From the NCBI RefSeq assembly GCF_028421645.1, contig NZ_CP116887.1:1738001-1802000 (forward strand): 64,000 bases of DNA. The letters run 5' to 3'. Numbering within the stretch: position 1 is the first letter of the stretch; every line of letters begins with the position of its first letter. This DNA is from Aneurinibacillus sp. Ricciae_BoGa-3 (GTDB lineage: Bacteria; Bacillota; Bacilli; Aneurinibacillales; Aneurinibacillaceae). The notes beneath the pieces were generated by a model, which saw nothing but the letters and a program-made list of their open reading frames with translations, was not told the origin of the DNA and ran no database searches. A program made the translations under genes and the position numbers. Of the stretch, positions 36,989 to 41,920 are shown one piece after another.

Positions 36989-37119
36989 TAGGATAGATAA
37001 TGGAGTTGTGTCGCGATCTTTCTGCAAAGTGTAAGCAGCAGCGACGCAGATAATTCCAATTTGTTTTGAATGTGATAAAATAGCAAAGGATGTCTAGCAA
37101 GAAAGGGGCACAATGTTTC

Positions 37120-37914
37120 GTGGACGATCGTTCGTGGGAACAATTTCTGATACCATATGAACAGGCGGTTGAGGAATTAAAAGTGAAATTTCGGAGTATC
37201 CGAAAGGAATTAAAGAAGAGAAATGAATATTCACCAATTGAATTCGTAACAGGGCGTATAAAGAAAATATCCAGTATTCTCGAGAAGGCTAATAAGCTGC
37301 AAATCCCGATGGATCGGCTTGAGGAGATGGAAGATATAACAGGCATTCGGATTATGTGCCAGTTTTCCGAGGATATCAGACGTGTTGTAGAGCTTATTCA
37401 CCAGCGTAACGGCAACGACATGACGATCCTTTATGAAAAAGATTACATTAACAACCAGAAGCCAAGCGGCTACCGCAGCTATCATGTTATCATTCGATAT
37501 CCAGTACAGACATCAATTGGGGAAAAAGAAATTTTAGCTGAAATTCAAATCCGTACCCTAGCTATGAATTTTTGGGCGACCATTGAACATTCGCTTAGCT
37601 ATAAGTATGAGAAAAATATACCTGAGGACATAAAGGAACGGCTGCGCAAGGCGGCTGAGGCTGCTTATTTGCTTGATACCGAGATGTCGGAGATACGCGA
37701 TGAAATACGTGATGCCCAGCAGTTGTTTGAATTTAAATCCAATACCGTTTCCCGCATCCTTCAGGGAATTCAAAATTTATACCAGCGAGGCTATGTAGTA
37801 GAGGCAACCGGCTTTCAGGATAAATTCCGTGCATTGCGTGCGCAAGGTGACGTCATGGATTTACGCCAGCTGTACCGGACAATTCAGGCTAAAATTCAAG
37901 AAGTGAAGGAATAG
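37120..37914 (+). CDS. Small alarmone synthetase, RelQ/SasB-like
   Basis: (p)ppGpp synthetase of 264 residues without hydrolase or regulatory domains. The RelA/SpoT synthetase fold shows SPIEFVTGRIKKISSILEKA, EDITGIRIMCQF, SGYRSYHVIIRYP and EIQIRTLAMNFWATIEHSL. The N terminus MDDRSWEQFLIPYEQAVEELK is like YjbM of B. subtilis, which supports GTG 37120 rather than ATG 37090, whose AAAGG is too close. About 50 residues at the C terminus, helical and charged, go beyond the usual 210-residue family length. It should raise alarmone levels under stress, probably as a tetramer like its relatives. Confidence 0.92.
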   Translation: MDDRSWEQFLIPYEQAVEELKVKFRSIRKELKKRNEYSPIEFVTGRIKKISSILEKANKLQIPMDRLEEMEDITGIRIMCQFSEDIRRVVELIHQRNGNDMTILYEKDYINNQKPSGYRSYHVIIRYPVQTSIGEKEILAEIQIRTLAMNFWATIEHSLSYKYEKNIPEDIKERLRKAAEAAYLLDTEMSEIRDEIRDAQQLFEFKSNTVSRILQGIQNLYQRGYVVEATGFQDKFRALRAQGDVMDLRQLYRTIQAKIQEVKE

Positions 37915-38347: not shown

Positions 38348-38944
38348 ATGCGCGTTGAACGTCTGGGAACAGACAAAATAAGGATTTTCTTAACCTTTGA
38401 TGATCTTGTAGAAAGAGGCATAGAAAAAGACGATATGTGGCGTGACATCCCTAAAGTGCATGAATTATTCAATGACATGATGGATCAGGCCCATGAAGAA
38501 GTAGGATTTAGTGTGAATGGTCCGGTTGCTGTTGAAGTATTTTCTCTTCCAGCCCAGGGAATGGTAGTTATTGTTACACGTGGTAAGACTGATTCAATAG
38601 ATAGTTCTGATGATATGGACTATGATGATATATATGAAATGCAGGTAACACTTGAAGAAAGCGACGATGTCATCTACTCGTTCTCTGATTTTGAAGATCT
38701 CCTTGAACTGGCACACCGTATTAATGCAAAACTTTTGTATGGAGGCAGCTTATACTCCTATAACGGCCGCTACTACCTCGTATTCGAAGAGATAGAAATG
38801 GAACGTAAGGATTATGAAGACTTCATCGCCGTTCTTTCTGAATATGGTGAAGCTTCTACTACAACGAAATACGTTCTGCAGGAATACGGAGCCGTTGTAA
38901 TCGGGGATGATGCAGTCAAAGTACTTTGCCAGTATTTTTCATAA
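38348..38944 (+). CDS. mecA: Adaptor protein MecA
   Basis: ClpC adaptor of 198 residues that delivers substrates such as ComK to ClpCP and activates ClpC. The N terminus MRVERLGTDKIRIFLTFDDL (substrate-binding part), the acidic linker (about 80-97, SSDDMDYDD) and the C-terminal ClpC-binding domain with FEDLLELAHRI and LVFEE are typical. Length is a little shorter than the 218 residues of B. subtilis MecA. CGGAGGGAGGGG lies before the ATG. Monocistronic with its own terminator. Confidence 0.95.
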   Translation: MRVERLGTDKIRIFLTFDDLVERGIEKDDMWRDIPKVHELFNDMMDQAHEEVGFSVNGPVAVEVFSLPAQGMVVIVTRGKTDSIDSSDDMDYDDIYEMQVTLEESDDVIYSFSDFEDLLELAHRINAKLLYGGSLYSYNGRYYLVFEEIEMERKDYEDFIAVLSEYGEASTTTKYVLQEYGAVVIGDDAVKVLCQYFS

Positions 38945-38996: not shown

Positions 38997-39158
38997 GTCT
39001 GCTCTTTAGGGCTGATTGGTCGTTTCGTGAATCTGCTGTGTGGTAGGGAGTAGGACAAGCGCTTTTTGTGTGAAACCACATACATTGTAGCAGGCAGGAG
39101 ATGATGATTCACCTGAAATACAGTGAGGCCGAAAGGAAACGAGGGAGAGTGAAAATAG

Positions 39159-40796
39159 ATGGAGCAGGACAATAACAACAAAACCAGCGAAGCGAAGCTG
39201 GCGGAAACCAAATTTAATGAAACGTCAATTGAACTGAAATCTGCAGAGAGTCAAAATATTCGCGATGTTGAGGATAAACCAGTGGCAGAAGATGCTCATA
39301 ATGTTAACCTTCCCCAGCGCATTTCAGAAGTTGATTTGGAAAATCTGGTACATTACTATGAAAAACGTCTATCATCAAATGCGATTTCTTTTCTTAAACG
39401 AAAAGGAATCGAAATGGAGACGGTTGAGAAATACCATATTGGTTTTGAAGAGCCACAGATTGGTTTTGGCTCGCGTCAAAAAAAACTTGGCGGTTTTTTT
39501 ACCAATTATTTGGTTTTCCCGATATATGATACGAATGGTAAACTGGTAGATTTACTTGGTCAGTCTATCCAGGATCCGCTGCCCCAGAATAAGACGCTGA
39601 TTGGCAGCGTGGATACATTTTTCAACCTGGAAGTTTTAACTGAAGAAGATGAAATTATTCTTTGCCGGGATGTGTTCGATGTTCTCACATTGGAACAGGC
39701 CGAGCTATGTGCGGTATGTGTTCCAGAGTTTAAGGTATTTCGGGAAGGGCACGCCGCCCTTCTTGCAGGCAAGCGGGTTTTTATTTGTTATCCGAATGAT
39801 GAGAACAGCCGGAGAGAAAGCAACCGCATCCAAACGATGCTGGCCAATGTAGCAAAAGAAGTGTATATCATTTATCTGCCGGAAGGGATTCGGAATATTA
39901 ACTATATGTTTACCGAAATAAAAAACCCCAAGCAGCGGTTTCTTGACCTTCTGCGAGATTCTGTAGAAGAAACGATAAAAGAGCCGGTAGCTGCTGATGC
40001 GAAAAATCTGACGCTATTTATGGAGGAATACAGCCAGCGTTTTAAAAATGAATACAACGGGATAAAAACAGGCTTTGCACCGCTAGACAAACAACTGCTG
40101 GGCGGGCTGCGAGGCGGGCTTTACCTCGTCCACGGCAACGTGTCAAGCGGCAAATCGATGTTTATGCGCCAGATAGCGGACCAGATCGCAGCACAAGAGA
40201 TCCCGGTCGTCTATGTTTCGTGGGATATGACGATGTTTGAACTGTGGGCACGGTCGATGGCGCGTATTCTGCAGGTATCCACACAGGAAGTTCTGGCGGG
40301 ACATATCGAGCCCGAGGAAATTCAACGGGCGAATCAAGCTTACAAAGAGATCGCCAATTACCTGTATACGATTGAGGGTAAGGTGGATACGACGCTTTCA
40401 GATGTGGAAGAATGTATAGAACTAATCACGCAATCGCTGGGACGTGTGCCCGTCATCTTTATCGATCATATTCAGCGTGTCCCCATCCGGGATGCAGAGA
40501 GACGACTGATAAACAACATGTCGCTCGTATCCTACCTTCTGCATCAGTGGTCGCGCAAATGGGATGTGCCGATAGTTGTGGCCGCGCCCCGGGAAGCCGG
40601 GCTGCAAAATGGCTTGTCACCTACGGTTGAAGCGTCAATGGATGTTATTTTGCTTCTTGAATCCGAAGAGGAGAAGTCTGAAAAAAAGCAGGAAAAAGTA
40701 CAAATCCGGGTGTTCAAAAACCGAAATGGTTCACTTGGACAGATTGCTTTTCTTTTTGATAAAGAAAAGGCGATGTTTATCCCTTTTCAGTCGTAG
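39159..40796 (+). CDS. Primase-helicase-like protein: degenerate Toprim plus DnaB-type ATPase
   Basis: Protein of 545 residues. After an acidic, probably disordered start (1-55), residues about 60-240 resemble the DnaG core and Toprim fold (AISFLKRKGIEMETVEKYHIGF; LVFPIYDTNGKLVDLLGQS). The Toprim Glu-Gly is replaced by Arg170-Asp171 in ILCRDVFDVL, and the DxD site reads YPNDENSRRE, so primase chemistry looks lost. No CHC2 zinc finger is present. Residues about 290-545 form a RecA-like hexameric helicase core: Walker A GNVSSGKS (326-333), Walker B VIFIDH (Asp436), and KNRNG as in DnaB. The layout is like Twinkle or phage T7 gp4. GAGGGAGAGTG precedes the ATG. Role unknown. Confidence 0.8.
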   Translation: MEQDNNNKTSEAKLAETKFNETSIELKSAESQNIRDVEDKPVAEDAHNVNLPQRISEVDLENLVHYYEKRLSSNAISFLKRKGIEMETVEKYHIGFEEPQIGFGSRQKKLGGFFTNYLVFPIYDTNGKLVDLLGQSIQDPLPQNKTLIGSVDTFFNLEVLTEEDEIILCRDVFDVLTLEQAELCAVCVPEFKVFREGHAALLAGKRVFICYPNDENSRRESNRIQTMLANVAKEVYIIYLPEGIRNINYMFTEIKNPKQRFLDLLRDSVEETIKEPVAADAKNLTLFMEEYSQRFKNEYNGIKTGFAPLDKQLLGGLRGGLYLVHGNVSSGKSMFMRQIADQIAAQEIPVVYVSWDMTMFELWARSMARILQVSTQEVLAGHIEPEEIQRANQAYKEIANYLYTIEGKVDTTLSDVEECIELITQSLGRVPVIFIDHIQRVPIRDAERRLINNMSLVSYLLHQWSRKWDVPIVVAAPREAGLQNGLSPTVEASMDVILLLESEEEKSEKKQEKVQIRVFKNRNGSLGQIAFLFDKEKAMFIPFQS

Positions 40797-40856
40797 CATA
40801 CAGAGTTATCCATTTGAGGTGGGCAAACATGGGTCACCGGCGTTGCGAACCGGGCC

Positions 40857-40891
40857 AAAATCCTCTACGATTGGTTGTGGAGGATTTTTCG
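40857..40891 (+). terminator. Terminator of the primase-helicase-like gene
   Basis: AAAATCCTC / GAGGATTTT hairpin followed by TTCGTTTT. Confidence 0.75.
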
Positions 40892-40936
40892 TTTTCCAGA
40901 GATAGAAATACAACAGGAGAATTGGAGGATTTATCA

Positions 40937-41920
40937 GTGGAACAAGTTATTATCGTTGGAGCAGGGCCATGCGGGCTGGCAGCTGCAGTGGAACTGAGAA
41001 AGAGGGGTATCGATCCTTTATTGATTGAAAAAGGGTGTGTTGTAAATTCAATATACGGTTATCCAATCAACATGGTATTTTTCAGCACTTCAGAGCGGCT
41101 TGAAATAGGCGATGTTCCTTTTATTGTGCCGGGTGAGAAACCATCCCGCGAGGAGGCTCTCAGCTACTATAGAACCGTTGCGCAGCGGACAGGCGTGCGC
41201 ATCCATACGTATGAGGAGGTCGAGACGGTTGAGAAGGGGGCAGACCGATTTCGCGTGTGGACAGTAAAGCGCACCGGCGAACGAAAAACGTATGAAGCCC
41301 GGTATATCGTTGTGGCCACCGGTTATTTTGATAACCCAAACTATCTGGATGTACCCGGTGAAGAATTAGAGAAAGTGACGCATTATTACCGGGAGGCGCA
41401 TCCGTACCAGGGGCAGAAAGTAGCCATAATTGGCGGTAATAATAATGCCGTTGAAGCCGCGCTTGCGATTGAGCGGGCCGGCGGCGAGGTAACATGGATT
41501 TATCGGCGCGCTGATTATTCTCCGTCTATTAAAGCCTGGGTGCGGCCTGTGTTCGAGTCCATTATAAACCGGGGCGTTATTAAAGCGATGTGGACTACGG
41601 AAGTGAAGCGTATTGAAACAGATCGGCTTGTTCTGCTGCAGGAAGGGCGGGAAGTGGTAATCGAAAATGATGCAGTTCTTGCCCTTACCGGTTACAGGCC
41701 AAACCGCCGTCTCCTCACATCGCTTGGTGTGCAAATAAACGAAGACAGTGGTGAGCCTGTGTTTAACCCAGAAACGATGGAAACCAATGTGGCAGATATG
41801 TTTATCGCGGGGGTTATTGCCGCCGGAAACAACGCTAACGCCATCTTCATTGAGAACGGCCGTGACCATGGTGCGGTCCTAGCGGCAAACATTGAAGAGC
41901 GGTTAAAAAAGCTCAGCTAG
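40937..41920 (+). CDS. ypdA: Bacillithiol disulfide reductase-like flavoprotein YpdA
   Basis: FAD/NADPH oxidoreductase of 327 residues that in relatives reduces oxidised bacillithiol. The FAD loop IVGAGPCGLAAAVELRKRG opens the protein, ATGYFDNPN follows, and the NADPH loop is IIGGNNNAVEAALAIERAG. The conserved single Cys near the first motif (GPCG, Cys11) matches YpdA. The frame is open back to 40814, but GGAGG lies eight bases before GTG 40937, which gives the family length. Its 3' end overlaps the convergent asparaginase gene by 18 bases. Confidence 0.95.
   Translation: MEQVIIVGAGPCGLAAAVELRKRGIDPLLIEKGCVVNSIYGYPINMVFFSTSERLEIGDVPFIVPGEKPSREEALSYYRTVAQRTGVRIHTYEEVETVEKGADRFRVWTVKRTGERKTYEARYIVVATGYFDNPNYLDVPGEELEKVTHYYREAHPYQGQKVAIIGGNNNAVEAALAIERAGGEVTWIYRRADYSPSIKAWVRPVFESIINRGVIKAMWTTEVKRIETDRLVLLQEGREVVIENDAVLALTGYRPNRRLLTSLGVQINEDSGEPVFNPETMETNVADMFIAGVIAAGNNANAIFIENGRDHGAVLAANIEERLKKLS

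Follow-up and report, generated by a model that had tools for sequence, protein, structure and literature searches.

Animal Twinkle, a mitochondrial SF4 helicase, is the well-known example of a primase-helicase that lost its primase. Metazoan Twinkle is described as having lost its zinc finger and primase motifs (PMC3610141), and vertebrate Twinkle as having a dead primase site and still being a helicase (PMC9723800). The latter source also describes contacts between the non-catalytic N-terminal domain of Twinkle and the neighbouring helicase domain, and a role in capturing DNA and partners has been proposed for this N-terminal domain (PMC9723800). T7 gp4 and the phage primase-helicases (PHROG 239) keep the zinc finger, the Toprim Glu, the DxD site and a [KR][EG][ST]G motif. 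Each DnaB subunit touches two phosphates of the ssDNA through the Arg, Glu and Gly of its RESG motif (PMC6391071; PMC8421360).

We analyzed a window of 64,000 nucleotides from Aneurinibacillus sp. Ricciae_BoGa-3 (contig NZ_CP116887.1, positions 1,738,001 to 1,802,000 of the forward strand), which carries a gene for a protein of this general kind. Like animal Twinkle, the protein has a dead Toprim domain, without a zinc finger, ahead of a DnaB-type core; unlike Twinkle, it belongs to a family encoded by a bacterial chromosomal gene in which the RESG-type motif is not in place, and its identity to Twinkle in structural alignments is 14-16%. Domain order, Walker A, Walker B and the Arg finger are shared with T7 gp4 and the phage primase-helicases, but the features listed above for those proteins are not kept intact in the family, which groups apart from them in a tree. 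Unlike bacterial DnaG, the family has no zinc finger, Toprim Glu or first Asp of DxD and is fused to a RecA core; unlike replicative DnaB, it has no listed N-terminal domain and its ssDNA-contact motif is not in place. The layout itself is known from gp4 and Twinkle, and what is new is a vertically inherited bacterial family apparently without priming and without a kept DNA-contact motif. We recognised no published description of this bacterial family in the open-licence PMC literature searched.

Protein layout and chromosomal setting

The gene, its immediate neighbours and the main parts of its product are as follows.

38348..38944, + strand: mecA (YpbH-type), the constant upstream neighbour (NF002781, E 2.8e-85)
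39159..40796, + strand: pseudo-primase/ATPase gene, 545 aa (Toprim/DnaG-type domain and DnaB-type RecA core)
39159..39314, + strand: predicted disordered tail, aa 1-52 (pLDDT <50 for residues 1-53)
39330..39986, + strand: DnaG-type RNA polymerase (Toprim) domain, catalytic residues missing, aa 58-276
39996..40043, + strand: linker helix between the halves, aa 280-295 (helix in the structure model)
40814..41920, + strand: ypdA, the direct downstream neighbour (TIGR04018, E 9.9e-132)

The preliminary description had seen a DnaG/Toprim-like part joined to a DnaB-type RecA core and had likened the layout to Twinkle and gp4, and we confirm the observation, with the sites as read. The protein joins a DnaG-type RNA polymerase domain to a DnaB-type RecA core, as proteins of the gp4/Twinkle type do; the Toprim fold of the DnaG group is present, and the DnaB_C domain, Walker A, Walker B and Arg finger are all there, as in SF4/DnaB-type P-loop ATPases. 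The DnaB N-terminal domain (PF00772) is absent from the Pfam families listed for it at E <=1. Its fold is a predicted one, for which the best Foldseek matches over the whole chain are T7 gp4 and Twinkle (Twinkle structure 7t8b, E 1.0e-20, whole chain). Whole-chain superpositions on gp4 or Twinkle have an rmsd of 10-19, because the two domains are positioned differently with respect to each other, and we relied on the single-domain rows. Identity to the sister protein P0002 is 31/52 in the tail (aa 1-52) and 207/228 and 241/265 in the remainder, and the linker residues D280, E290 and R294 are invariant in 42 sequences. The only names that databases give to relatives are DnaB-like, DNA primase, toprim and putative primase-helicase.

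The same genome carries a further, separate gene of the DnaB type (C1:4954584-4955369; 24% identity). Its dnaG-like primase gene (L177, G000:C1:3779500-3782500) is split in this assembly into two overlapping open frames (447 and 237 residues), through either a sequencing slip or a real frameshift, and contig C2 has another DnaG-like open frame (404148-404891; 494 residues).

Protein searches were confined to the 7997 and 7998 candidates with the most shared words, and one of them listed 49 proteins including the query; P0002-P0047 are members of the family or sister forms, and the listed matches that bear a genus name come from Aneurinibacillus, Ammoniphilus, Brevibacillus, Paenibacillus and Microaerobacter. 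Genomes were surveyed with a family profile at E <=1e-30. At the level of the GTDB order, 9/15 genomes had a match. Across the class, 22/398 did; judged by length and coverage, 19 of them have this family and 3 only a longer primase-helicase type; across the phylum there were 21/398, three of which scored >500 bits (the window genome, G416 and G420). Of 11 genomes in the GTDB family, six have an intact gene, one has a broken remnant and four have no match at the mecA locus. The remnant, in A. terranovensis (L105 = L042 9352-9890), lies between mecA and ypdA and retains residues 248-544 in pieces in different frames, the N-terminal half being gone.

At 45/45 loci from named genomes (44 intact genes and one remnant), the gene has a mecA homologue upstream of it in the same orientation, and in all 45 at least one of ypdA, ansA, prsW, ypeB and cmk lies downstream. 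In 19 further genome stretches, several of which represent the same genomes, the distance to an upstream mecA is <=2 kb in 14 and 7.7-8.4 kb in 3, and the remaining 2 gave no mecA. At one locus (L044), a glutamate dehydrogenase gene follows the pseudo-primase gene, whereas ypdA follows directly in the window. Upstream of mecA, the window (37090-37914) and its near relatives carry a gene for a YjbM-type (RelQ) GTP diphosphokinase; (p)ppGpp inhibits DnaG-type primases.

The idea that the gene is a resident cellular one, put forward in the preliminary description, is borne out by its position downstream of mecA at every one of these 45 loci, and it is not confined to prophages: the locus is chromosomal and the phage and viral matches are distant. 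A phage collection gave no close relatives, its 14 records covering <=36% of the protein, and three scans of viral contigs returned 0, 1 and 25 distant loci, the 25 (from a looser scan with alignment A2) having 23-32% identity in their best segment. Single-sequence scans of genome and viral contigs had recovered no relatives, and alignment-based scans did recover them. A prophage origin of the window copy was rejected in view of the gene order beside mecA and because no close relatives turned up among phage or viral sequences. The gene is a resident, chromosomal and vertically inherited one in Bacillota.

Residues of the primase-like and ATPase halves

The residue counts come from one alignment, in which the family is represented by 90 distinct cores, the primase-helicases by 37 distinct cores and DnaB by 6 sequences; the residues of T7 gp4 were taken from a separate alignment (96 family rows, 38 primase-helicase rows and T7). 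The sites compared are these.

39666..39671, + strand: Arg-Asp replacing the Toprim Glu-Gly, aa 170-171
39792..39800, + strand: Pro-Asn-Asp replacing DxD, aa 212-214 (first Asp gone, second present)
40134..40157, + strand: Walker A GNVSSGKS, aa 326-333 (Lys332 in 90/90)
40224..40226, + strand: Asp replacing the catalytic Glu, aa 356
40464..40466, + strand: Walker B Asp, aa 436 (90/90)
40587..40625, + strand: shortened loop where the ssDNA-contact loop (RESG motif of DnaB) sits, aa 477-489
40716..40730, + strand: KNRNG with the Lys and Arg fingers, aa 520-524 (Lys520 in 87/90, Arg522 in 88/90)

The dead primase site that had been read in the window protein extends to its relatives. The Toprim Glu and the first Asp of DxD are each found in 0/90 family cores, against 37/37 primase-helicases and T7 gp4 (together with the [KR][EG][ST]G motif, both also occur in 38/38 primase-helicase rows and T7 in the separate alignment), and the outcome is unchanged among 29 representatives of <70% identity (none with the Toprim Glu, none with the first Asp). 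The second Asp, D214, is present in 90/90. A strict Cys4 zinc-finger pattern ahead of the domain occurs in 0/90 family cores versus 27/37 primase-helicases. With the Toprim Glu and the first Asp gone from all family cores, the primase is dead across the whole family. The primase-like domain has a median net charge of -11 (range -17 to 1; 96 rows, some of them duplicates), compared with -3.5 (range -14 to 4; 38 rows) for the counterpart in primase-helicases. The more acidic domain is a weak hint of protein rather than DNA contacts, given that the two ranges overlap widely and that the helicase half of T7 is itself negative (-7).

In the ATPase half, the position of the catalytic Glu is occupied by Asp in 73 of the 90 family cores, Glu in 13, Gln in 3 and Gly in 1. 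With an Asp or Glu there in 86/90, most members may hydrolyse ATP. The exceptions are L057-L059 (Gln) and L060 (Gly), all four of which retain the P-loop Lys; Lys520 (in three of these members) or Arg522 (in L059 and L060) is also changed. For the pairs L057/L058 and L058/L059, which are without the catalytic acid, dN/dS is 0.07-0.10. A lost catalytic acid, a kept P-loop Lys and these low ratios make it seem that nucleotide binding, more than hydrolysis, is what the family has retained.

The loop that would contact ssDNA differs more. For the segment 472-496, family members have 22-27 residues, whereas primase-helicases and T7 have 33-39 and DnaB has 36, so that the family loop is ~9-15 residues shorter, although the alignment is uncertain where lengths differ and this is the softest part of the residue comparison. 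The [KR][EG][ST]G motif is present in 37/37 primase-helicases, in T7 and in 6/6 DnaBs; RESG- or KETG-like letters appear in 4/90 family cores, at the start of the segment and not at its end. The window protein (P0001) has Arg-Glu-Ala-Gly in the loop, and its relative P0003 is without it. The displaced motif and the shorter loop speak against a DnaB-style helicase. With the Walker and finger residues kept and the Toprim and RESG residues not, the comparison indicates that residues of the ATP pocket and ring interface are conserved and those for handling polynucleotides are not.

Sister forms, selection and expression

Four sister forms (P0047, P0050, L155 and L156) are short, like the family, and have neither the strict Cys4 pattern (0/4) nor a RESG-type motif (0/4). 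Unlike the family, they keep the Toprim Glu and both Asp of DxD (4/4 each); the catalytic Glu is also present in 4/4. Two of them lie on chromosomal contigs of other Bacillota genomes.

L155, 788-2371: short sister form, intact Toprim site, no zinc finger
L156, 9845-11581: short sister form, intact Toprim site, no zinc finger

The neighbours on the L155 contig resemble housekeeping genes by eye. All 21 rows of the family cluster together (100/100) in a 41-row tree, in which a second split (100/100) separates the family plus the four sister forms from 16 primase-helicases. As the sister forms keep the Toprim site and are without the zinc finger and DNA motif, the comparison suggests an order of loss in which the zinc finger and DNA motif went first, the Toprim acids next and the catalytic acid last (L057-L059, L060); the direction is inferred and depends on the root, which we chose to place on the primase-helicases. 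Surveys around G416 and G420, of 101 genomes each (largely the same genomes), found only these two.

Both halves of the protein are under purifying selection. We took 15 selected pairs, in which the primase-like half has a dN/dS of 0.026-0.088 (defined in 12 pairs) and the ATPase half one of 0.019-0.103 (11 pairs); for the same pairs, where defined, it is 0.017-0.147 for mecA and 0.029-0.116 for ypeB. The low values in a dead primase half therefore point to its retention as a fold or surface. Across 42 family sequences, 44 columns are invariant, and W355, W363, R206, E220, R440 and W464, among others, hardly vary within the family and are uncommon among primase-helicases.

A possible sigma-E control of the gene had also been proposed, from one sequence in its upstream region.

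39079..39086, + strand: CATACATT, proposed sigma-E -10 (not supported)

By eye and against the sigma-E consensus, CATACATT has no recognisable -35, and the region ahead of the A. tyrosinisolvens gene shows nothing like it at the corresponding position, so that sigma-E control, while conceivable, is not supported. No conserved promoter could be made out by eye among the upstream regions listed. A terminator-like hairpin lies between mecA and the gene in 39/44 loci, as called by a rough ad hoc rule (that of the window was spotted by eye and does not figure among the listed sites). In 11 of these 39, mostly close relatives, only 18-23 nt separate the end of the hairpin from the start codon, too few to accommodate a promoter specific to the gene; expression there would depend on transcription continuing from mecA or on a more distant upstream promoter. 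In a Paenibacillus group (L082, L087, L090, L099, L103 and others), the hairpin ends ~20 nt before the start, as though the gene were expressed across a leaky terminator.

A link to competence through mecA found no support: ComK (PF06338) is above the cut-off in 6/28 genomes, two of which (G011, G013) have the gene, and within the GTDB family it is above the cut-off, with weak scores, only in the gene-less G005, G007 and G008. Spo0A is found in 28/28 genomes, gene present or not, and does not discriminate with respect to sporulation.

Possible roles of the protein

We favour, tentatively and with somewhat less than even confidence, an ATP-binding ring that serves as a scaffold or regulator of DNA-replication or repair proteins. 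The resident pseudo-primase, fused to its DnaB-type ATPase core, is predicted to bind ATP and form a ring; ATP would switch this ring in its work as scaffold or regulator, and it would neither prime nor processively unwind DNA. By analogy with what has been proposed for the N-terminal domain of animal Twinkle, the dead primase domain would be a mobile docking arm. ATP binding, ring assembly, loss of unwinding and a regulatory role are predictions of this reading, in favour of which are the lost primase residues, the misplaced RESG motif, the kept ATP and ring residues, the low dN/dS, the more acidic charge and the match to gp4 and Twinkle over the whole chain. Against the scaffold reading, DNA could be held by other residues, and the acid kept at the catalytic place in 86/90 cores may let most members hydrolyse ATP.

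The strongest rival is a working ring helicase without a primase, a bacterial counterpart of animal Twinkle that would use the dead domain for its own loading and would act in repair or replication restart by unwinding or annealing DNA. It draws on the whole-chain Foldseek matches to Twinkle and gp4, on the kept Walker A, Walker B and Arg finger, on the acid at the catalytic place in 86/90 cores and on vertebrate Twinkle, which is a helicase with a dead primase site (PMC9723800). However, the RESG-type motif is out of place, the loop is shortened and the four members without the catalytic acid are still under selection, and we consider this rival unlikely. A hexameric helicase or DNA-binding ATPase with the primase fold kept as a scaffold had been the inference of the preliminary description; the ring and the scaffold survive as predictions, and the helicase is made doubtful by RESG letters that are present in 4/90 cores and misplaced there, and by the loss of the catalytic acid in four members.

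Less probable again, and in our judgment quite improbable, is a dominant-negative decoy that would insert into or obstruct the DnaB ring or the primosome, whether the host's or that of an invading phage, and thereby curb replication. A protein shaped like a replication factor, with ring-interface residues and no active sites, would suit such a role, as would a gene that is dispensable in part of the GTDB family, but its location beside mecA and housekeeping genes is constant. A search for anti-phage defence systems with PADLOC likewise gave no full-length match, and its RTasDnaG-like match (E 3.1e-12) is confined to the Toprim part (P0001 110-262). That the gene is a decaying, functionless remnant of an old phage primase-helicase is very improbable: the catalytic motifs are lost, the gene is broken in A. 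terranovensis and four further GTDB-family genomes show no trace of it at their mecA locus, but the dN/dS of the two halves (0.026-0.088 and 0.019-0.103) argues strongly against decay, as do the 44 invariant columns in 42 sequences and an intact gene in 44/45 loci.

It is possible, though we lean against it, that a bacterial Twinkle-like lineage shed its DNA handling stepwise, with the ATPase acid also going in two branches, and became a nucleotide-binding ring without a DNA job, one that docks to regulate the host replisome or repair machinery. This Bacillota family shows a Twinkle-like loss of the primase and goes further, in that the conserved DNA-contact motif is not kept. Together with the sister forms, whose primase site is intact, it provides a natural series for asking why a dead primase domain is kept, and the series is found in bacteria in which gene deletion is feasible.
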